Source: Halobellus salinus
Lineage (GTDB): Archaea > Halobacteriota > Halobacteria > Halobacteriales > Haloferacaceae
Direction of reading: 5' to 3'
Assembly: GCF_014646875.1 (NCBI RefSeq)
Contig: NZ_BMOC01000003.1
Location: forward strand, 1 to 64,000
Length of the DNA: 64,000 bases
A model generated the notes under the pieces. It was not told where the DNA came from. It was given only the letters and a program-made list of their open reading frames with translations, and did no database searches. Positions 1,558-39,037 of this stretch are shown piece by piece; position 1 is the first letter of the stretch; the number at the start of each line of letters is the position of its first letter. The translations under genes and the position numbers were made by a program.

Positions 1558-2862
1558 ATGGACGGTAGAACGCACACTGTGGATGTCAACCCCGGTGAGA
1601 CAGTCACCGTCGCCGGATGGGTCCACGAGGTCCGCGACCTCGGCGGCATCGCCTTTCTGATTCTCCGTGACACCACGGGTAAGATCCAGATCGTCTTCAA
1701 AGAAGACGAAATGGACGCCGACCTCGTCGGAACTGGTCTAGGTGTCGCCCGCGAGAGCGTCATCACCGTTACCGGTGACGCGGAGGAGCACTCGAACGCC
1801 CCCGGCGGGGTCGAGGTCACACCTGAGTCCGTCGAGGTGCTCGCCGAGTCTGATACTGAACTCCCGCTCGACCCTTCGGGGAAGGTCGACGCCGACCTCT
1901 CGACGCGGCTCGACAACCGGACGCTTGACCTCCGGAAGGAGGAGGTGAAAGCGATCTTCGAGATCCGTGCGGAGGTCCTTCGGTCGGTCCGCGAGGCGTT
2001 CTACGACCTCGGGAGTACCGAGATCAACACGCCGAAGATCGTCGCCACCGGCACCGAAGGCGGCACCGAACTGTTCCCGATCACGTACTTCGGCGAGGAG
2101 GCGTTCATGAACCAGTCGCCCCAGTTGTTCAAACAGCTGATGGTCGGGTCGGGCCTCGAACGGGTCTTCGAGATCGGCCCGATCTTCCGCGCGGAGGAGC
2201 ACAACACCCCGCGGCACCTCAACGAAGCGACGATGATCGACTTCGAGTCCGCGTTCTTCGACCACACCGAGGCGATGGACGCCTGCGAGCACGTCGTCAG
2301 GAACGCCTACGACGGGGTCGCGGCCAACTGCCAGCGGGAACTCGAACTCCTCGGGCTCGAAGACGCCTTCGAGGTGCCCGACGAGGCGTTCCCCCGGCTG
2401 ACCTACCAGGAGGCGATCGAGCGGATCAACGCGACCGGCGAACTCGACGAGCAGCTCGTGTGGGGCGACGACCTCCCGACCGAGGGCGAGCGCGCGCTGG
2501 GCGACGACGTCGGCTCACACTACTTCATCACCGACTGGCCCAGCGAGATCAAGCCGTTCTACATCAAGGACCACGACGGCGACGCGGATCTCTCGACAGG
2601 ATTCGATATGATGCATCCGGTGATGGAACTCGTCTCCGGCGGCCAGCGTGAACACCGCTACGACCACCTGGTCACGGGATTCGAGCAGCAGGGGCTTGAC
2701 CCCGACCAGTTCGACTACTACACCAAGATGTTCAAATACGGGATGCCGCCGCACGCCGGGTGGGGACTGGGAGTCGAGCGCCTCGTGATGACGATGCTCG
2801 GACTGGAGAACATCCGGGAAGCCGTGTTGTTCCCACGCGACCGGCAGCGCCTGTCGCCGTAA
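1558..2862 (+). CDS. aspS: Aspartyl-tRNA synthetase (archaeal type)
   Basis: Class II aminoacyl-tRNA synthetase of 434 residues, the usual archaeal length. An OB-fold anticodon-binding domain occupies about residues 1-105, followed by the catalytic core. Motif 2 is [11 protein letters not shown] (about 210-220) and motif 3 is [11 protein letters not shown] near residue 400. The short bacterial-type insert is absent. Archaeal enzymes of this type often charge both tRNA-Asp and tRNA-Asn, the latter corrected by an amidotransferase; which applies here cannot be read from sequence alone. The C-terminus [10 protein letters not shown] is the family norm, and its coding sequence is repeated downstream. 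Confidence 0.97.
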
Positions 2863-3034
2863 GGCGACGGCGCGGCCACGAGCGCAGCGAGTCTCTCTTT
2901 GTTCCCGCGAGACCGCCAGCGACTCGGCCCGTAGGGCTGGTCGCTGCGATTCGAGGGGGAACCGGAGCGACAAGCGCAGCGAGTCTCTCTTTGTTCCCGC
3001 GAGATCGACAACGGCTCTCGCTGTAAGGCGAGGT
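2827..3034 (+). repeat. Tandem reiteration of the aspS 3' end
   Basis: The segment coding the last residues plus stop (starting TTGTTCCC at 2827) recurs at 2899 and 2991 in diverged form, each followed by a stop-like GTAGGGC or GTAAGGC. The spacers share AGCGCAGCGAGTCTCTCT (about 2881 and 2973). Periods are 72 and 92 nt. Confidence 0.8.
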
Positions 3035-8823: not shown

Positions 8824-8860
8824 ACCTCACGGTGGCGCGTGCGATCGTATATGTCCTCCC

Positions 8861-8946
8861 TTCCGACGCCAAAGCCCCGCACATTATCCCTTCCGACGCC
8901 AAAGCCCCGCACATTATCCCTTCCGACGCCAAAGCCCCGCACTTTA
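8861..8946 (+). repeat. 30-bp tandem repeat, 2.9 copies, upstream of dcd
   Basis: The unit TTCCGACGCCAAAGCCCCGC followed by ACATTATCCC occurs perfectly at 8861-8890 and 8891-8920, then 8921-8942, after which the third copy diverges to ACTTTACGTC. ACTTTACG ends about 25 nt before the dcd ATG and is the likely TATA element, so the repeat looks like a multiplied promoter segment. There are no spacers, so it is not a CRISPR. Confidence 0.95.
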
Positions 8947-8972: not shown

Positions 8973-9566
8973 ATGATCCTCTCGGACGACGACATCCTGG
9001 CCCGGTTGGAGGCCGGCGACCTCGTCGTCGACCCCCTCGACGACATCGATATGCAGGTCCAGCCCGCGAGCGTCGACCTCCGGCTCGGCGAGGAGTTCCT
9101 GGAGTTCCAACGCGCCAACATCTCGTGCATCCACCCCAATCGCGAGGAGGAGATCTCCGAGTACGTCGAGGAGACCGTGGTCCCGGAGGGCGAGGAGTTC
9201 ATCCTCCACCCCGGGGACTTCGTGCTCGGCACCACCAAGGAGCGCGTCGCGATCCCGGATGACCTGGTTGCCCACGTTGAGGGGCGGTCGTCGCTCGGGC
9301 GGCTCGCGATCGTGGTCCACGCGACCGCGGGGCTGGCCGACCCCGGCTACGAGGGCCAGATCACGCTGGAGCTCTCGAACCTCGGCACCGCGCCCGTGGC
9401 GCTCACCCCGGGGATGCGGATCTCACAGCTCACGTTCACCGAACTCAAGAGCCCGGCTGCGCGGCCCTACGGTGCCGAGCGCGGCTCGAAGTACCAGGGG
9501 CAGTCGGGGCCGCAGGCCTCCCGGATCGGGTCCGATCCGGAGTTCGCGGGCCAGGGCGAGAAATGA
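8973..9566 (+). CDS. dcd: dCTP deaminase family protein
   Basis: Supplies dUMP or dUTP for thymidylate synthesis by deaminating dCTP. The 197-residue protein starts [19 protein letters not shown] at the ATG placed one TATA distance after ACTTTACG. Family motifs are [12 protein letters not shown] (about 27-38), the active-site segment [20 protein letters not shown] and [16 protein letters not shown], then the C-terminal [14 protein letters not shown]. It overlaps the downstream thiR start by ATGA, so the two are translationally coupled. Confidence 0.95.
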
Positions 9567-10477
9567 AGTTCGTCGAGGAGATTGTGGTTGAGGAGTTCCT
9601 CCCCACGTTTCGGTCGATGCTGGCGGAGGCGCTCCGCGACCGGGGGCTGACCCAACACGAGGTGGCCGAAACGTTGGGGATCAGCCAGAGCGCCGTATCG
9701 AAGTACGCCCACGGCGACGTGAGCCGGCGGGCAGAGGTGCTCGACGACGAGCGCGTCCGGCGGCTCGTCGAGGAGGTGGCCGAAGGGCTCGCGACCGGCG
9801 ACACGAGTCGGGTCCGGGCGCTGGTCGAGGCCGAGGTCCTGATCCGGCGGCTGGAGGAGGGCGACCTGCTCGCCCGGCTCCACGAGGACGCGATGCCCGA
9901 GCTGGCGGCCCACGACGGCTACGTCCGGATCCACGACCCCGACAGCGACCTCCGGGCCAGCGAGGCCGTCCGGGCGTCGCTCCGGCGGGCGCTCCGCCGG
10001 CTCACCAACACCAGCGGGTTCGCGGGGCTGATCCCGAACGTCGGCTCGAACCTCGTGGCGTGTCTCCCCGACGCGGCCGCCGTCGACGACGTTGCGGGCG
10101 TCCCCGGTCGGATCTTCGATGTGAAAGGTCGGGCGACGGTTCCCGGTGACCCGGAGTTCGGCGTTAGCGAGCACGTCGCGTCGGTGTTGCTGTCGGCCCG
10201 CGCGGCCGGGGCCGACGCCCGTGCAGTTATCAACGTCCGGTACGATCCCGACCTCCTCGCCGACCTCGAAGCCGCGGGGTACGACGCGGTCGAGTTCGAC
10301 GCCGAGGCGTCCGGCGACCCGATCACCGAGGCGCTCGCGGCTGCCGGCCCGGAGACACTCACCTCGACGTTCGTCGCCTACCAGACAGGGGGGTACGGCA
10401 TCGAGCCCATCACCTACGTGGTCGGGCCCGAAGCCGACGCGGTCGCGGCGGCGGTGGTGGGACTCCTTGGTGCGTGA
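9563..10477 (+). CDS. thiR: Thiamine-responsive regulator ThiR (HTH plus ThiN)
   Basis: Has 304 residues. An N-terminal Xre-like helix-turn-helix lies at about 22-52 ([20 protein letters not shown]). A C-terminal ThiN-like domain follows from about 140 ([57 protein letters not shown]). In archaea this architecture is known as ThiR, a repressor of thiamine genes that senses thiamine phosphates; the ThiN domain alone is a thiamine-phosphate synthase. Coupled to dcd by a 4-nt overlap. No thiamine gene lies in the window. Confidence 0.85.
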
Positions 10478-12470: not shown

Positions 12471-14174
12471 GTGACCGGGCCGACCCCACTCGACGACGCC
12501 GGATTCGACCCCGACGACGACGGGGCCGAAACGGTCCTCGTCGCGGGCACCGCCAGCCACGTGGGCAAGAGCACCGTCGCCGCAGGGCTGTGTCGCCGAC
12601 TCGTCAACGCCGGGGTCGACGTCGCGCCGTTCAAAGCCCAGAACATGAGCAACGAGGCGCGGGCGGTCGTGCGGCCGACTGCAGTCCGGGGCGAGGCAGT
12701 CTCGGAACTGGGGCCACACGGCGACGCCGGCGACACCGGCCGATCCGCCGCCGCCGTGTTCGGCGAAGTCGGCGTCTCCCAGTACGTCCAGGCCCACGCC
12801 GCCGGCGTGCGGCCGACCACCGACCACAATCCGGTGCTTCTGAAACCCCGCGGCGGCGGGGAGTCACAACTCGTGATCGACGGGGTCGCGGTCGGCCACC
12901 ACGCCGCGGCCGACTACTACGCCGACTGCTGGGACGACGCCCGCACAGCGGCCGAGGCGGCTCACGACCGTCTCGCCGCCGCTCACGACGTGGTCGTCGC
13001 GGAGGGGGCGGGGTCGATCGCGGAGATCAACTTCCACGACCGCGACCTGGCGAACGTCGAGGCCGCCCGCTTTGCGGACGCGTCGATCCTGCTGGTCGCC
13101 GACATCGAGCGCGGCGGCGTCTTCGCGTCGATCGTGGGGACGCTGGAACTCCTCCCCGACGACGTCCGCGAGCGGGTCGCCGGCGTGGTCATCTCGAAGT
13201 TCCGCGGCGACCGCTCGCTGCTCGACCCCGGGATCGAGGAGGTCGAATCCCGGACCGGCGTGCCGGTGCTCGACGTGCTGCCGTACGACGACCCCGGGCT
13301 CCCGGAGGAAGACAGCGTCTCGCTCCCCGATCCGGGCGAACGGGCGGTCCGCGGCGGCGACGACGGGGTCGCGGAAGATCGCACCGTCACGGTCGCCGTC
13401 CCGCGGCTCCCCCGCGCGTCGAACACCGCCGACCTCGACCCGCTTGCCGCCACGCCGGGCGTCCGGGTCGAGTTCCGGCCGCTCGACGCCCGGGTCGGGG
13501 ACACCGACGCGGTCGTGCTCACGGGGACGAAAAACACCGTCGACGACCTTCGCGCGCTCCGTGAGGCGGGGCTCTACAACCGGCTGTGTGGCTTCGACGG
13601 CCCGATTGTGGGGCTCTGTGGCGGCTACCAGCTCCTGGGTGAACGGCTCGTCGACGCCGACGTCGAGGGGGTCGACAACGAGCAGACCCTCCGCGGCGTG
13701 GGGCTGCTCCCGATCGAAACCGGGTTCTCCCCGCGGAAGCGCGTCGCGCCAGCGATCTGGGACCTCGACGGCACGGGGCCGCTGGCCGGTGCGTCGGGGC
13801 CCGTGGAGGGCTACGAGATCCACGGCGGCGAGACGCGGGTGTCGTCGTCGGGGGCGGTCGACGGCCGCGGTGGTGCGGGTCCCGACACCGCGGCGTCCGA
13901 GCCGGTGTCGTTCCCGTTCGCCGCGCCGAACCGCGAGGGCGTGACCCTCGGCGCCGCGGCCGGGAACGTGCTCGGCACGTACCTCCACGGCCTCTTCGAG
14001 AACGACGACGCCCGGGAGGCGTTCGTCGACGCCGTCTTCGGGCACGCAGGGGTGTCGCGGCCCGAAGGCGGTGGCGGAGCCAGCGACGGCGGCCGCGCCG
14101 ACGCCGATCCCTACGACCGGGCCGCCGACCTCGTGGGAGCGGTCCCGCTGGACCGCGTCCTCACCCCGGAGTGA
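12471..14174 (+). CDS. cbiP: Cobyric acid synthase
   Basis: Glutamine-dependent amidation of adenosylcobyrinate diamide at four positions. The GTG at 12471, 4 nt after cobA, gives 567 residues; an ATG at 12429 would overlap cobA by 38 nt. The N-terminal synthetase domain has P-loop [10 protein letters not shown] and [13 protein letters not shown], then [20 protein letters not shown] without the first Q (read as [15 protein letters not shown]). The C-terminal type 1 amidotransferase has the nucleophile Cys in [10 protein letters not shown], the [11 protein letters not shown] block and His in [12 protein letters not shown]. The C-terminal tail is Gly/Asp-rich. Confidence 0.93.
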
Positions 14175-24561: not shown

Positions 24562-25101
24562 CTACGGAGCCTCCCCGCTGACGGTGATCGTCTCGCTCAG
24601 GCTGGTACTCGTCGTCGCGTCGTCGGTCGCCGTGACGAGCACATCGTACGTCTCGGCATTCCCGGGGCTGACCGTAACGTTCGGGAAACCCGACTGTGGC
24701 ACAACGAGAACGATCAGCGTCGTGTTGCCGCCGCTCGATTCGATGAACGACAGCGGCGTCACCTGTACGTCGACGTCCTGTGTCCCCTGATTCCGGACTT
24801 CGAAGAGATCCGCGAAGACGGTTATGGCGTCGGCGTTGACACCTCCGCCGCCGCCAGTCGTCGAGTTCCCGCTGGTAAAGTCGAGTCCGAACTCACTGTT
24901 CGACGACCCGTTATTTTCGGTGACGTACTCCGCGTTTGCGTTTCCGGTGTCGTCGATAGCCAAGTACCCAGTGGCGTCGGTTGCCACCTGGACCGCAACG
25001 TCTCTGTCTGCCGATGCACTCGTGAACGCACCGGTTCCTGATACGACAGCTCCACCGCCGCTGAGCAGGCCGAGCGCGGCCAACATCTTGCGCCGATTCA
25101 T
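24562..25101 (-). CDS. DUF1102-like exported protein, paralogue 4
   Basis: A 179-residue protein starting MNRRKMLAALGLLSGGGAVV, a twin-arginine-type signal, then GTGAFTSASADRDVAVQVA. The mature protein is beta-rich and acidic with the shared motif LFEVRNQGTQDVDVQVTPLS (about 100-119). Haloarchaeal DUF1102 proteins share this layout and resemble SipW-processed camelysin/TasA-like matrix proteins; that link is inference. Its stop abuts the beta-helix ATG with no spacer, so the two are likely co-translated. Confidence 0.85.
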   Translation of the reverse strand: MNRRKMLAALGLLSGGGAVVSGTGAFTSASADRDVAVQVATDATGYLAIDDTGNANAEYVTENNGSSNSEFGLDFTSGNSTTGGGGGVNADAITVFADLFEVRNQGTQDVDVQVTPLSFIESSGGNTTLIVLVVPQSGFPNVTVSPGNAETYDVLVTATDDATTSTSLSETITVSGEAP

Positions 25102-25128
25102 ATTTACTGGTCCCCTGTGTCGGGGAAA

Positions 25129-25153
25129 CCCACCGGCGGAATCGAACCGCCGT
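25129..25153 (-). repeat. T-arm-like hairpin repeat, copy B
   Basis: On the minus strand ACGGCGGTTCGATTCCGCCG continues GTGGG, followed by a CCCC-GACACA-GGGG hairpin. It lies between two genes of the exported-protein series, 28 nt before the start at 25101. Confidence 0.6.
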
Positions 25154-25211
25154 GTCGCGATGGAACCGCGAGCGAAACCATCCGTGGGTAGGGGAACTTC
25201 GGAGCGTGCGG

Positions 25212-25685
25212 TTACGGACCGATTCCTGGACTGTTGGAGTCGATTGCGTTCGAGCCGCTTGGTTGCTCTTCGTCTGCCTCAGGGGTCGTCGTCTGTGAGC
25301 CGCTGTTCACGCTGTTGCTGTCCACACTGCTGTGGCCGAACGTCGTCATGAACATCCCGATTCCCTGATCCTCTCCGGTCGAGAGTTCCAAGACGTTCTG
25401 CGGTGATCCGGACCCACCACTGATCGGTCCCGGTCCCTGCCCGTTTTCGACCGGAGTCGGGTTGCCGTTATCAGTAACAAAGAACTTGACATCGATGTCG
25501 TCGCCGTCGGCACCGCTGTCGATCGGAATTCCGGTGGTCGGCGCGAGGCTGACGAACACGTCCTGGGTGCCCTGATTCTCGACGGTGAACACGTTGTTGA
25601 ACTGGCACTCCGAGAACTGGCCGACGCCCAAAGCGGCACTGCCTGCGGCGTTCCCGACCGTTGCGAGGAGTGTTCGTCGATTCAT
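25212..25685 (-). CDS. DUF1102-like exported protein, internally shortened paralogue 3
   Basis: A 157-residue protein starting MNRRTLLATVGNAAGSAALG, then passing straight to VFTVENQGTQDVFVSLAPTT at about 32-51. In the three sibling genes that block comes only after residue about 85-100. The GAFTSVxADR segment and first beta domain are therefore missing, although the frame is open. The C-terminal 40 residues are Ser/Asn/Gly-rich. It may be a deletion derivative that is still expressed, or decaying. The gap to the upstream paralogue is 3 nt. Confidence 0.75.
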   Translation of the reverse strand: MNRRTLLATVGNAAGSAALGVGQFSECQFNNVFTVENQGTQDVFVSLAPTTGIPIDSGADGDDIDVKFFVTDNGNPTPVENGQGPGPISGGSGSPQNVLELSTGEDQGIGMFMTTFGHSSVDSNSVNSGSQTTTPEADEEQPSGSNAIDSNSPGIGP

Positions 25686-25688
25686 CGA

Positions 25689-26390
25689 TCAGAGGGTGTC
25701 GCTCGGTGTGCCTGGGTCAACGTTCGTGGCGCCACCGTCGTCGGCAGCGTCCGCGGTAATCGTTGTCGTCGTCCCTGGAGGGGCGTTCACGGTGCCAGTC
25801 GGATTGTTTACACCGTCGTAGTTGCTCCCGTCAACCGTCTCAATCAGTATACCGATGGCTCGGGAGGTACCGACAGGCACCGTCAACTCGTTGTTGACTC
25901 CATCGATCACGTCCGCGCCCGAAAACGACGGGCCGGTCGCGTTCGTGTCTGCGCCTTGGGAAGCGAAGAAATCAATCCGAACTTCGCCGCCAGTATTACC
26001 AGGGCCTGCCGGGTCAGTGTCGACGACCAGCGAATCAACCTGGACGAACACGTCCTGCGTACCCTCGTTGCGGACCCGAAACACGTCGTCGAAGACGTAC
26101 TGCGAGTCGACGCCGACACCAACACCACCGGTAGCAGTCCCGCTTGCGTCGTTGATATCGATCGAGAGTTGATTACCCGGGACACCGTTGCTGAGGGCGA
26201 ACGTTCCGTTCGGCTGATCGAGGCTCCCCCTGTCGCTTGGGTAAATCTGTAAGAACCCGTTCACATCGTCGCTGACCTGCACGTTCGCCTGCCGGTCGGC
26301 GTCGACGCTCGTGAACGCGCTGGTGCCGGTGATGACGCCACCGCCACCGACGAGTCCGCCCAGACCGACCAGCAGTTGTCTTCGGTTCAT
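25689..26390 (-). CDS. DUF1102-like exported protein, paralogue 2
   Basis: A 233-residue protein with signal MNRRQLLVGLGGLVGGGGVI, then GTSAFTSVDADRQANVQVSD. The shared motif VFRVRNEGTQDVFVQVDSLV lies at about 106-125, and the C-terminal half is Gly/Asp/Asn-rich (GPGNTGGEVRIDFFASQGAD). Twin arginines favour Tat export. It is the second gene of the minus-strand series, 15 nt after paralogue 1. Confidence 0.85.
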   Translation of the reverse strand: MNRRQLLVGLGGLVGGGGVITGTSAFTSVDADRQANVQVSDDVNGFLQIYPSDRGSLDQPNGTFALSNGVPGNQLSIDINDASGTATGGVGVGVDSQYVFDDVFRVRNEGTQDVFVQVDSLVVDTDPAGPGNTGGEVRIDFFASQGADTNATGPSFSGADVIDGVNNELTVPVGTSRAIGILIETVDGSNYDGVNNPTGTVNAPPGTTTTITADAADDGGATNVDPGTPSDTL

Positions 26391-26405
26391 CCTAGCTCAC
26401 GCTCG

Positions 26406-27053
26406 TTAGAGGCTGCCGGATTGGTCAGCGATGAAGGTGATCGTCCCTGACGTGCTCACGTTCGCGTTGTCGAACGTCGTCGTGTCGACTGTCAGGTCGA
26501 GGTGAACGGATTCACCTTGAGTGAGCTCGTACGCGCCGTTCACGGTCGGGTCGGCAATCACACCAACGTCGGGATTGGGGGTGGTGCTACTGTCGAACGC
26601 GATATTGTCGTTCAGGTTACTACCAGTGGTTTCGTCTGCCACGACGGCCAGTCCGACACCGGCCTGGTTGCCGGAGCCGTCTGACAGATCCAGATTGGCC
26701 GTGTCCACGCTGAGGTACGCGCTCTGGGTGCCCTGATTCTGTACTTCGAGCAGATCGTCAACCTCGGTCACAGCGTTTGGATTGAATCCGTTACCGCTGA
26801 CCGAGGCGTTACTCGAGGTGAAGTCGAGCGAAATCTCGGCGCCACTGTCGTCCACGTACGCGTCCGAGTTCGCCCCGGGGTCAGCGTTGGGGCCTGCCGC
26901 CTTCCGCAGTGCGAGGTACGCACTCGAGTCGCCGGCGACCTCGACGTCGACGGTCCGATCCGCTTCCACACTCGTGAACGCTCCCGTTCCCATCGCAGCT
27001 GCGCTACCTGTTGTCAATGCACCTAGTCCGGCCACGAATTTGCGTCGTTGCAT
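26406..27053 (-). CDS. DUF1102-like exported protein, paralogue 1
   Basis: A 215-residue protein with signal MQRRKFVAGLGALTTGSAAA, then GTGAFTSVEADRTVDVEVAG and DSSAYLALRKA, the clearest version of the family start. The shared motif LLEVQNQGTQSAYLSVDTAN lies at about 103-122. It ends in a beta-strand TITFIADQSGSL. It is the first gene of the minus-strand series, so its promoter lies in the 432-nt divergent region with the HTH gene. Probably a cell-surface or matrix protein. Confidence 0.87.
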   Translation of the reverse strand: MQRRKFVAGLGALTTGSAAAMGTGAFTSVEADRTVDVEVAGDSSAYLALRKAAGPNADPGANSDAYVDDSGAEISLDFTSSNASVSGNGFNPNAVTEVDDLLEVQNQGTQSAYLSVDTANLDLSDGSGNQAGVGLAVVADETTGSNLNDNIAFDSSTTPNPDVGVIADPTVNGAYELTQGESVHLDLTVDTTTFDNANVSTSGTITFIADQSGSL

Positions 27054-34569: not shown

Positions 34570-35529
34570 ATGTCGACTGATGGACTCGGAACCGCCGCGA
34601 CGACGGCGGTCGAGCAGTGTCTGGCACTCGGCGCCGACGAGTCGTGCATCGTGATCACCGACGACAAACGGCGGCCGATCGGCGAGGCGCTGTACAACGC
34701 CGCCACGGCCGTGGCTGATGACACCGTTGTCCTCCAGTATCCGCCGGGCGACCAGCACGGCGAGGAGCCGCCGGGGGCGGTGGCTGCCGCGATGGCCGAC
34801 GCCGACGCGTTCCTCGCGCCGACGACAAAGAGCCTCAGTCACACCCGGGCCCGCGGCGACGCCTGCGACGCGGGTGCCCGCGGCGCCACACTCCCCGGGA
34901 TCACCGAGGAGGTGTTCGTGACGGGGCTCGACGCCGACTACGACGCCATCGCCGCCCACTGTGCGGACGTACTCGACCAGGTCGCCGACGCCGACGAGAT
35001 CCGGGTCACCACCCCGGCGGGCACCGATATCGTCGTCGAGCCCGGTACTCGGCCGTGGCACGACGACACGGGGATCGTCCGCGACGACGGCGACTTCTCG
35101 AACCTCCCCGCGGGGGAGGTGTTCGTGGCGCCCGAGACCGCGAACGGCACCTACGTCGTCGACGGCACGATGCGCCCCCACGGGCTGCTCGACGACGGGC
35201 AGCAACTCCGGTTCGAGGTCGAGAACGGCTACGTGACGGAGATCTCCGACGACGAGATCCGCGGCCAGGTCGAGGCCGCCGCCGACGAGGTCGGCCGCGA
35301 CGCCTACACCCTCGCGGAGCTGGGGATCGGAACGAACGTGGGAGTGACCGACCTCGTGGGATCGGTGCTGCTCGACGAGAAGGCCGCCGGAACGGTCCAC
35401 ATCGCCATCGGCGACAACGCCGGGATCGGCGGCGACACCGACGCGCCGCTGCATCTCGACGGGATCGTGCGGGAGCCGACAGTGTACGCAGATGGGGAGG
35501 TCGTCGACCTCCCGGAAGTCGAGCGGTAG
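34570..35529 (+). CDS. Aminopeptidase, M29-like (leucyl aminopeptidase T type)
   Basis: A 319-residue protein; start chosen at MSTDGLGTAATTAVEQCLAL. Metal-ligand-like blocks lie in the C-terminal third: LAELGIGTNVGVTDLVGSVL, LLDEKAAGTVHIAIGDN and PLHLDGIVREPTVY (E, E, H, H-x-D pattern of M29 enzymes). The N-terminal half resembles other haloarchaeal members. Likely removes N-terminal amino acids from cytosolic peptides. The 3' end is reiterated downstream. Confidence 0.85.
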   Translation: MSTDGLGTAATTAVEQCLALGADESCIVITDDKRRPIGEALYNAATAVADDTVVLQYPPGDQHGEEPPGAVAAAMADADAFLAPTTKSLSHTRARGDACDAGARGATLPGITEEVFVTGLDADYDAIAAHCADVLDQVADADEIRVTTPAGTDIVVEPGTRPWHDDTGIVRDDGDFSNLPAGEVFVAPETANGTYVVDGTMRPHGLLDDGQQLRFEVENGYVTEISDDEIRGQVEAAADEVGRDAYTLAELGIGTNVGVTDLVGSVLLDEKAAGTVHIAIGDNAGIGGDTDAPLHLDGIVREPTVYADGEVVDLPEVER

Positions 35530-35620
35530 CGCCGCGAGCAGGCGAGGCAGTGGAACTTCCTCGATAGCGAACGGCGGAGCCGCGAGCAGGCGAGGTCGTC
35601 GACCGCCCGACAGTCGGACG
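35497..35620 (+). repeat. Reiteration of the aminopeptidase 3' end
   Basis: GAGGTCGTCGACCTCCCGG at 35497, in the last codons, recurs as GAGGTCGTCGACCGCCCGA at 35592, and GCCGCGAGCAGGCGAGG occurs at 35531-35547 and 35579-35595. The arrangement resembles that after aspS. Confidence 0.7.
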
Positions 35621-35667
35621 GGAGCACCAGAAGACCGCGGGGACGTAGCCGCTCTCGACCGACCCGG

Positions 35668-36987: not shown

Positions 36988-38226
36988 ATGACGAGAGAAC
37001 CAACCTGGTCCCGCCGGAGCCTACTGCGCGGGAGTGCTGGCGTCGGAGTTGTCGCGACCGCGGGGTGTCTCCGACTCACCGACGGGTCGACGGGGACACC
37101 GACGGACGGACAGGGCGGCACGGAGGCGGGCGGACAGGCCGGGTCGGCGACGACTGGTTCGACAGAAGCGGCGCCGACGGACGCCCCCGGCGGATCCACG
37201 ACAGCCGGATCCGCCTCCGAGATCGAACTCGTCCCGGCCTGGTCGGGGTCGAGCAGCGCGGTGGCGGCCGCCGCCGGCAATTTCTTTTTCCGGCCGTCGT
37301 TCACCCGCCTCAGGCGAGTCCGCCCCGACGGAACGGCCGTCTTCGAGGCCGAGGTTGCGGACGGGTACCTCCTCTCGATCAGGACGTTCCGGAACGGCTT
37401 GTACGCCGACGACACGGGCGTGTACGTCGGTTCGAGGGCCCGAGACGAGGTCGATACCGGTGGGAGAGTGTACGCACTCGATCCCGAGACCGGCGAGGAA
37501 CGCTGGATGCACGAGGAGCCGGGGGACGGACTGCACAACGAGACCTTGGCGGTGACGGTGACCGACGGGACCGTGATCTTCGCGAGTCAGAGCAGCGGCA
37601 GCGGCGACGAACAGGAGCCGATCGTCCGCGGCGTCGACACCGAGAGCGGCGAGGAGCGGTGGCGGATCCAGTTCTCGGAGGGGTTCATCAACGGGATCGT
37701 CGCCCGCGGTGACCGACTGTTCGTCCAGCAGACGTTCGGGCTGTCGATATACCGGCTCTCGACGCGGGAACTGCTCGAAGAACGACGATTGACGGCGGGG
37801 TTCAGCCAGTTCGCCGCCGCCGACGGGACGCTCTTCGTTCCCGGCGAGACGGTTCGCGCGTTGACGCTCCCCGCCGGCGACGAGCGCTGGTCGGTCTCCA
37901 CGGGTCGGTCGGTGAACACGGGCGTCGGCGTCGGCGAAACCGGCGTGTTCGTCGGCACGGAGAGCGGATTCGTGCTGGGGTACGGTCGGGAGACCGGCGA
38001 CGCGTTGTGGGAGAGCCGCGTCGACGGCGTCGTCGAACACCCGCCGGTCGTCGCGGACGGCGTCGTCTGGATCGCGAGCGAGCGCGGCGACCTCTCGGCG
38101 TTCGCCGAGGCGACCGGCGAACTGCTCTACGAGGAGGAGATCGCCCCGGGGTTCGAGTTCACGGTCCTGGATGGGATCCTCAACGACGACGAGCGCGACA
38201 CCGCCTACGAGATCCGCCGAGGCTGA
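36988..38226 (+). CDS. PQQ-type beta-propeller lipoprotein, Tat-exported
   Basis: A 412-residue protein with Tat motif SRRSLLRGSAGVG and lipobox Cys in TAGCLRLTDG, the same CLRLTD start as its divergent neighbour. A long Gly/Thr/Ser linker runs to about 75. Propeller repeats are VYALDPETGEERWMH, VRGVDTESGEERWRI, VLGYGRETGDALWES and LSAFAEATGELLYEE. The pair most likely arose by duplication; both would be anchored outside the membrane. Its last codons begin a 22-bp tandem repeat. Confidence 0.88.
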   Translation: MTREPTWSRRSLLRGSAGVGVVATAGCLRLTDGSTGTPTDGQGGTEAGGQAGSATTGSTEAAPTDAPGGSTTAGSASEIELVPAWSGSSSAVAAAAGNFFFRPSFTRLRRVRPDGTAVFEAEVADGYLLSIRTFRNGLYADDTGVYVGSRARDEVDTGGRVYALDPETGEERWMHEEPGDGLHNETLAVTVTDGTVIFASQSSGSGDEQEPIVRGVDTESGEERWRIQFSEGFINGIVARGDRLFVQQTFGLSIYRLSTRELLEERRLTAGFSQFAAADGTLFVPGETVRALTLPAGDERWSVSTGRSVNTGVGVGETGVFVGTESGFVLGYGRETGDALWESRVDGVVEHPPVVADGVVWIASERGDLSAFAEATGELLYEEEIAPGFEFTVLDGILNDDERDTAYEIRRG

Positions 38227-38285
38227 GCAGAGCATCCGCCGAGGCTGAGCAGAGCATCCGCCGAGGCTGAGCAGAGCATCCGCCG
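38212..38285 (+). repeat. 22-bp tandem repeat spanning a stop codon
   Basis: ATCCGCCGAGGCTGAGCAGA plus GC occurs at 38212, 38234 and 38256 without mismatch, followed by a partial fourth copy at 38278. The first copy contains the last codons and TGA stop of the PQQ gene. A slip would restore the same C-terminus. Confidence 0.97.
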
Positions 38286-38377
38286 CCGATAGCGTCGGAT
38301 CATCGGCGCACGCCAGCGCCTACCACGCCGACGAGCGGAAGAGCGGACTTTTACCGCGTGACAGGCTACGAGAACGT

Positions 38378-39037
38378 ATGAGTACGCCACAGGACCGCCT
38401 CGCGGTCGACTGTCCGTCCTGTTCGTCCGCCGAACCGACCGTCCACGAGGTACTGAAGCAGGGGAGCGGCCGCAACACCGTCCGGTGTACCGAGTGCGGC
38501 CACGTCCACAAGGTCCGGATCGAATCCGAATCCCGGATCGAGCGCGACGTCGTGGTCTCCCAGGACGACGAATCGTTCTCCACCCGCACGGAGATACCGC
38601 CCGCCGAGACCCTCTCGGTCGGCGACGACTTCATCGTCGACAGCGCGGAGGCGCTTGTCCAGGTCCGGGTCACGGGACTGGAACTCGGCCCCGAAGAGCG
38701 CGCCGAAGACGCCCGCGCCGAGGACGTTTCGACCATTTGGACCCGCGAGATTGACAACGTCACCGTGAAGACGACGCTCAACCCCAAGGAGGGCACCGGC
38801 GACCGGGAGTCCACGCGGAGCTTCGACCTCCAGGTCCCGGGCGACTACGAGTTCGCGGTCGGCGAGGCCGAGTCGTTCGGCGACGAGGAGTTCGCGGTGA
38901 AGGCGATCCAGGTGCGCGACGACGCGCCCGAGTACCGCCACGGGAAGCTGGACCACGAGGGGGACATGGTCTACGCGCGGGACATCAAACGGCTCTACGG
39001 CACCGACAGGACGACCTCAGCGTGGTCGGCCTGGTAG
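38378..39037 (+). CDS. HVO_0476-family zinc-finger protein
   Basis: A 219-residue protein starting MSTPQDRLAVDCPSCSSAEP with CPSC and RCTECGHVHKVRIE forming a zinc ribbon (about 12-45). The rest is a conserved acidic domain (SVGDDFIVDSAEALVQVRVT, TIWTREIDNVTVKTTLN, GDMVYARDIKRLYG). It matches the haloarchaeal family named for HVO_0476; role unknown, and a nucleic-acid or ribosome link is suggested only by the ribbon. A TTTTAC box lies about 30 nt upstream. pcm follows after 49 nt. Confidence 0.85.
   Translation: MSTPQDRLAVDCPSCSSAEPTVHEVLKQGSGRNTVRCTECGHVHKVRIESESRIERDVVVSQDDESFSTRTEIPPAETLSVGDDFIVDSAEALVQVRVTGLELGPEERAEDARAEDVSTIWTREIDNVTVKTTLNPKEGTGDRESTRSFDLQVPGDYEFAVGEAESFGDEEFAVKAIQVRDDAPEYRHGKLDHEGDMVYARDIKRLYGTDRTTSAWSAW

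Follow-up and report, generated by a model that had tools for sequence, protein, structure and literature searches.

The 22-bp Array at the End of the PQQ-Repeat Gene

The window, a 64,000-nucleotide stretch of contig C3 from the draft genome of Halobellus salinus (3.07 Mb, 54 contigs; G000), contains a gene for a PQQ-repeat protein whose 3′ end is overlapped by a short tandem array. The features of this locus are as follows:

37261..38226, plus strand, PQQ_2/β-propeller gene, its end overlapped by the array (Pfam PQQ_2, 5e-23; ORF; own gene call)
38212..38285, plus strand, tandem array of 3.36 exact copies of ATCCGCCGAGGCTGAGCAGAGC (TRF; sequence)
38212..38219, plus strand, ATCCGCCG, the left 8-bp seed copy (sequence; ortholog in G007)
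38224..38226, plus strand, TGA stop of the PQQ-repeat gene, inside copy 1 of the unit (sequence; ORF)
38378..39037, plus strand, next gene, encoding a CPxCG-related zinc finger protein (Pfam PF19769)

The first-pass annotation had described an exact 22-bp tandem repeat that starts within the coding end of the PQQ-repeat gene, and this description is borne out by two routes. Direct reading of the sequence gives 3.36 exact copies of the unit over 74 bp, and TRF returns the same interval (period 22, 3.4 copies, 100% matches, score 148). Copy 1 holds the stop codon at offset 12, and the trailing partial copy of the array, at 38278–38285, is a second ATCCGCCG. The zinc finger gene begins 151 bases past the PQQ stop; at the other end, the PQQ reading frame is open from 36097 and its true start is uncertain.

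At lags of 10–60, exact self-matches in the window reach 56 bases, compared with 10–14 bases in 30 first-order Markov simulations, which rules out a chance origin of the array. The 22-bp unit has no other occurrence in the whole 3.07-Mb genome with up to three mismatches allowed, and the PQQ protein matched no relative in a scan of genome contigs. A known RNA family is likewise excluded, as Rfam at the gathering score matches nothing in the window except a tRNA.

Relatives and Origin of the Array

Clear orthologs of the PQQ-repeat gene were found in two of 40 relatives, G007 (82% protein identity) and G011 (77%). The gene end in G007 reads ATCCGCCGAGGCTGAGCACAGC, followed by ATCCGCCG once and then by unrelated sequence, which amounts to 1.36 copies, a single unit flanked on both sides by the 8-bp direct repeat. 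In G011, the coding end is alike up to the last codons and no repeat is present past the stop. The window therefore has the G007 arrangement plus two extra units, and copy number differs between lineages (3.36, 1.36, and no repeat), a difference at the species level that is based on two orthologs. No diverged, stop-bearing spare ends accompany the PQQ-repeat gene; the copies in the window are identical, and there are none in G007 or G011.

These observations are best explained by an ordinary minisatellite that has recently expanded by slippage and persists because it is neutral to the protein, a reading to which we assign a probability of about 85%. Minisatellites are made of head-to-tail units of at least 10 bp with high identity, and the array consists of 3.36 such units of 22 bp at 100% identity. 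A duplication born of slippage should show, before expansion, a short direct repeat on each side of its unit; this is the configuration seen in G007, where bracketing by ATCCGCCG provides the standard setting for slippage and makes it a plausible originating event. The identity of the copies points to recent expansion. The direction of change was probably a gain in the window rather than a loss in the relative, although with a clear ortholog in only two of the 40 relatives it is unproved, and a contraction in G007 is possible.

The proposed sequence of events begins with two chance 8-bp direct repeats, ATCCGCCG, 22 bases apart, that would have bracketed the end of the PQQ-repeat gene. Replication slippage, or an equivalent misalignment at short homology, between the two copies would have produced a duplication, after which growth to 3.36 copies would have been easy. 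The array would then persist by protein neutrality, since the unit opens in the final codons and includes the stop, so that copy 1 always terminates the protein and copy number cannot alter the product. Translation of the gene end with one, two, three, or four units gives the same C terminus in each case, ...EIRRG*.

Another array over a stop, with a 47-bp unit (L066), is missing from all six relatives examined, which argues that stop arrays come and go. The 64-bp stop array of L010 is a counter-case: it is absent in five relatives, but G004 retains it in the form of diverged copies, so it is not short-lived. This array (L010, 19426–19706; also L264) has 4.4 copies, and the stretches that flank the stop in it look complementary.

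Placement of Tandem Arrays Relative to Stop Codons

The first-pass annotation had further suggested testing whether tandem repeats are enriched over stop codons. We surveyed 864 kb of the same genome, made up of the window and 40 other stretches, and 1.6 Mb from four relatives, each represented by 20 stretches of 20 kb, for a total of 2.464 Mb from five genomes of the genus. In this DNA, 2274 genes were predicted by a home-made codon-usage caller; its calls give a coding fraction of 0.80–0.87, and genes missed by it inflate the intergenic null. Only arrays of non-triplet period with a TRF score of at least 70 were counted. Among the 62 arrays, 25 have a stop codon in the first copy and one has it elsewhere, 30 are intergenic, five are coding, and one overlaps a start; the stop is thus located in copy 1 in 25 of 26 stop arrays. 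In the window's own genome alone, seven of 18 arrays lie over stops, all seven with the stop in copy 1.

For the null, each array was reduced to a single unit and its remainder and then reassigned randomly to any of the tolerated positions, a procedure that supersedes an earlier tolerance null with final array lengths (7 vs. 2.3 expected). Against this null, the 25 stop arrays compare with 7.0 expected, and the enrichment relative to random placement is real. The null is too generous, however, because positions more than 120 bases from called genes are nearly free of arrays (four vs. 22.3 expected) and probably include missed genes. With these positions and the 20 bases before starts left out, stops hold 25 of 51 arrays (12.5 expected, P = 1.3e-4), an excess of about 2-fold. 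Compared with the first 60 bases downstream alone, the excess is marginal (25 of 38, expected share 0.48, P = 0.021), and with triplet units added, 32 of 56 arrays are at stops (P = 0.15). In alignments of each gene end with its own 175 downstream bases, scores of at least 32 are reached at 26 stops out of 2249, at one start out of 2156, and at six coding sites out of 1269, and in 0.06% of cross-gene pairs.

The enrichment thus stands against random placement, but most of it is a consequence of protein neutrality: arrays are rare in coding DNA (5/62) and at starts (1/62), and a unit that holds the stop is invisible to the protein. The genus-wide excess would then mainly reflect neutrality as a filter on arrays that form in non-coding DNA at large. 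There is a residual excess of up to 2-fold that tolerance alone may not explain.

One source of such a residual could be a process specific to the 3′ ends of genes, acting perhaps at end hairpins or where transcription complexes terminate, that creates tandem duplications over stops. In addition to the 25 arrays at stops against 7.0 expected, array density drops with distance downstream (observed vs. expected: 8 vs. 3.4 at 0–20 bases, 5 vs. 4.2 at 20–60, and 1 vs. 3.6 at 60–120), starts are nearly without arrays, and reiteration recurs at the aspS and M29 aminopeptidase ends described below. Yet per-site lag repeats are about as frequent at intergenic sites (6/484, 1.24%, and 10/656, 1.52%) as at stops (32/2274, 1.41%), being rarer at starts (3/2274) and coding sites (7/1642). 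Positions 20–60 bases 5′ of genes show no depletion (nine arrays vs. 5.6 expected), and the periods overlap (median 26.5 over stops, n = 32; 24 intergenic, n = 59), so that stop and intergenic arrays look like one population. Given also the marginal result against the 3′ flank, a null weakened by missed genes, and the lack of any stop array in G013 at score 70, we regard a process of this kind as a minority possibility, with perhaps one chance in a few.

Silent Ends Downstream of aspS

The second gene end in the window to which reiteration had been attributed is that of aspS, which is followed by two silent, stop-bearing copies of itself:

2839..2862, plus strand, aspS coding end, DRQRLSP* (sequence comparison)
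2911..2934, plus strand, first silent aspS-like end, DRQRLGP* (sequence comparison)
3003..3026, plus strand, second silent aspS-like end, DRQRLSL* (sequence comparison)

The two silent ends lie in non-coding DNA and differ from the coding end mainly by synonymous changes. We compared 109 aspS loci, comprising the best 80 of 133 named loci and 29 from relatives (30 loci were returned from 40 genomes, one of which was the window's own). At least one DRQRLSP*-like end occurs within 800 bases downstream in 55 of them, with 84 copies in all, and antisense copies number zero across the 109 loci. After removal of 11 loci identical to named ones, 50 of 98 distinct haloarchaeal loci carry 78 copies, 63 of which encode DRQRLSP* exactly. 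The 84 copies differ from their own coding ends at 90, 55, and 295 first, second, and third codon positions, respectively. This bias fits the notion that the copies are former coding ends, but it is weaker than the evidence for exchange given below, as a search for DRQRLSP-like ends itself favors third-position differences.

In the 864 kb sampled from the window's own genome, no intact copy of the aspS end motif lies outside aspS; three other matches occur at three mismatches. This locus specificity, in a sample of the genome, speaks against a REP-like family of dispersed palindromes, and GAGC..GCGAG palindromes are not concentrated in non-coding DNA (density ratio 1.2). Units of less than 100 bp without a gene argue against integron attC sites or remnants of integrase attachment sites at aspS. 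In one locus (L143), a composite 155-bp unit made of two different silent ends is duplicated without visible change 0–320 bases past the aspS stop.

Evidence that ends have been exchanged comes from a tree of the aspS body built for 99 loci. The last serine codon switches between the AGY and TCN classes 30 times on this tree (shuffled labels: mean 33.2, minimum 25), compared with 0–10 class switches for eight other conserved serine codons. Third-position changes in the last 12 codons (36, 25, 2, 17, 31, 31, 45, 24, 45, 28, 42, and 17; body median 16) are raised across most of this stretch. Two Haloarchaeobius species (L150 and L142) have aspS bodies of 97.2% identity, but their last ten codons are only 77% identical and the serine class is switched; several other close pairs, such as L175/L114 and L161/L156, keep identical ends. 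By 51-base comparison, 71 of 78 silent copies are nearer to the coding end of another species than to their own, a result partly expected by numbers, as there are 97 candidates against one.

Sister species differ by whole units, and two pairs of loci display the gain or loss directly. In Natronorubrum bangense (L151), the coding end together with about 110 bases of downstream sequence corresponds to the first silent unit of N. sulfidifaciens (L153) plus the sequence behind it, so that one unit was lost or gained. Similarly, the coding end and downstream flank of Natrialba sp. SSL1 (L108) match the last of three silent ends in N. chahannaoensis (L113), so that three units were lost or gained. 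Loci whose bodies have diverged also share near-identical units, with no more than four differences in 51 bases (9 of 13,794 pairs), which may reflect transfer between species. From these patterns we infer a recombination step between units, which is plausible in view of the very efficient gene conversion described for Haloferax volcanii (PMC8223754).

The arms on either side of the aspS stop can pair, and they match their own partners. In a duplex-energy test that covered 94 of the 109 loci, those on the minus strand being missed, coding ends pair with their own partner at −17.28 kcal/mol, compared with −14.57 kcal/mol for permuted partners (z = −8.6; 89 distinct ends), and downstream copies do so as well (z = −8.5; n = 73). 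The corresponding values are z = −1.5 both for aspS ends without copies (n = 43) and for ordinary gene ends (n = 150). An earlier test with fixed, ungapped 8-base arms was insensitive (coding ends 5.71 vs. 5.56 permuted; downstream copies 5.72 vs. 5.43). This pairing is no proof of RNA function, because relatedness among the sequences, or template switching at a palindrome, can increase the match too.

The M29 Aminopeptidase and Other Reiterated Ends

A comparable arrangement is found at the end of the M29 aminopeptidase gene (34570–35529):

35497..35529, plus strand, M29 aminopeptidase coding end, type A (Pfam; locus comparison)
35544..35567, plus strand, silent type-B end with stop, GAGGCAGTGGAACTTCCTCGATAG (locus comparison)

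A degenerate type-A end follows at 35592, and the reiteration as a whole spans 35497–35621. In 11 of 16 loci of the genus, window included, the coding end belongs to a pair of related palindromic types, type A (..GEVVDLP.VER*; four loci) or type B (..GEEVELPR* and close variants; seven loci). Eight of the 16 have one or two extra ends of these types downstream, mostly alternating, with the order A-B-A in the window and G007 and B-A-B in G004 and G011. Ends of either type are missing at the five other loci (L285, L291, L292, L296, and L298), and 12 M29 loci from other genera have none except two weak coding-end matches (L293 and L295).

Several further repeats were observed in the course of this work. 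The last codons of an Eco57I-type methylase gene (L005, 12037; AIVEEAVDGDEE*) recur 150 bases downstream, and farther past the same gene there is an array of 3.4 copies of a 151-bp unit (12906–13414). In the window, a near-perfect array of three 30-bp copies (8857–8946) occupies the short gap between a dCTP deaminase-like gene and its neighbor; as this gap separates divergent genes, the array possibly lies in promoter DNA. Consecutive small genes on the minus strand of the window (24562–27053) encode proteins with similar N termini (MNRRKMLAALG.., MNRRTLLATVG.., MNRRQLLVGLG.., and MQRRKFVAGLG..) and are probably a local family of secreted proteins.

The remaining end, that of thiR (9563–10477; ThiN and HTH domains), contains two similar pieces 20 bases apart near position 10477, with an alignment score of 20. 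Own pairs attain this score in 10.7% of cases and cross-gene pairs in 7.9%, and we therefore reject thiR as a reiterated gene end, as it is indistinguishable from background; the M29 end does stand above background.

One Class of Gene Ends or Several

The first-pass annotation had listed four gene ends with tandem reiteration that includes the stop and had raised the possibility of one mechanism common to them. The list holds for the exact PQQ array and for the aspS and M29 ends, the latter two being diverged and of another kind, but not for thiR; the common mechanism is not supported, as the PQQ array arose recently by slippage, thiR does not differ from background, and aspS and M29 are old, exchangeable ends.

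Three other readings of the PQQ array were weighed. It might be a functional element of the mRNA 3′ end, acting in termination or stability, with its copies under selection. There is precedent in Haloferax volcanii, for which a published study describes hairpins upstream of some termination sites, one tested hairpin terminating 59% of transcripts (PMC7237163). The predicted fold of 38191–38300, from the native sequence alone, is nevertheless long and many-looped, with no compact hairpin per unit, and the array is missing in relatives, so we think this improbable. Slightly less credible still is that all four ends, PQQ included, form one class of exchangeable silent ends like those of aspS. In PQQ, aspS, and M29 alike, the unit includes the stop, and contraction or expansion leaves the protein end intact. 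However, the PQQ copies are identical, 22 bp long, and lineage-specific, and the aspS copies are mostly 50–93 bp apart, diverged mainly at third positions, and paired across the stop; thiR, as noted, is background. An assembly artefact, conceivable in a draft genome of 54 contigs, is the least credible of all for a 74-bp array that sits well within its contig and has both flanks supported by orthologs.

The minisatellite reading of the PQQ array is therefore retained, and aspS and M29 apparently represent a distinct system of exchangeable spare ends. We lean toward the view, held with clearly less assurance than that of the array, that certain haloarchaeal genes, foremost among them aspS, with M29 as another case, keep silent spare 3′ ends downstream and that recombination repeatedly swaps the working end. 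Each spare end would consist of the last codons, the stop, and the hairpin, set in a row directly downstream. The aspS protein would stay constant as the DNA for its final ten codons is exchanged across the class, and what is kept may be the stop-spanning hairpin rather than the codons. On this view, the PQQ array would be a counterpart, young and without structure, that occupies the same protein-neutral niche.

Implications and Comparison with Known Systems

Whatever its period, an array leaves no trace in the protein when its unit begins in the coding end and the stop sits within that unit, and gene ends are for this reason a niche for minisatellites. In this sense, the gene-end effect proposed at the outset is partly right. 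At aspS, the 3′ end of a gene has been exchangeable as a unit many times with the protein constant, a warning that terminal codons are unsafe for synonymous-rate or phylogenetic work. It also raises the question of what maintains, across much of an archaeal class, a stop-spanning hairpin and its spares where a tRNA synthetase gene ends.

A search of open-licence papers, which is weak evidence of absence, found no paper on haloarchaeal spare gene ends or on haloarchaeal arrays that overlap stops. Two other prokaryotic repeat systems bear comparison. The tandem repeats of Borg elements are A-rich and extrachromosomal (PMC9879509), whereas the PQQ array is on a GC-rich haloarchaeal contig. Some sets of the TAACTGA repeats of Beggiatoaceae run over the stop codon of the gene before them, as the arrays here do, and stops arise in three frames; a single 7-mer recurs genome-wide, mostly before starts, whereas here each array has its own unit (PMC4679880).

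The PQQ array alone is a minor VNTR of a known kind, and the novel part lies in the reiterated, exchangeable gene ends, those of aspS in particular. Prokaryotic minisatellites, or VNTRs, serve as MLVA typing loci. Like them, the PQQ array has identical short units placed head to tail, a non-triplet unit outside coding DNA, and a copy number that varies with lineage; unlike them, its unit holds a stop codon in the first copy, and the copy-number difference is known here between species only. For aspS and M29, the comparison is with the silent-cassette systems that, together with gene conversion, underlie antigenic variation. Unlike in those systems, the aspS protein is unchanged, and just about ten codons and the stop are swapped, to no known purpose; the likeness lies in silent partial copies that match the expressed ends of relatives.
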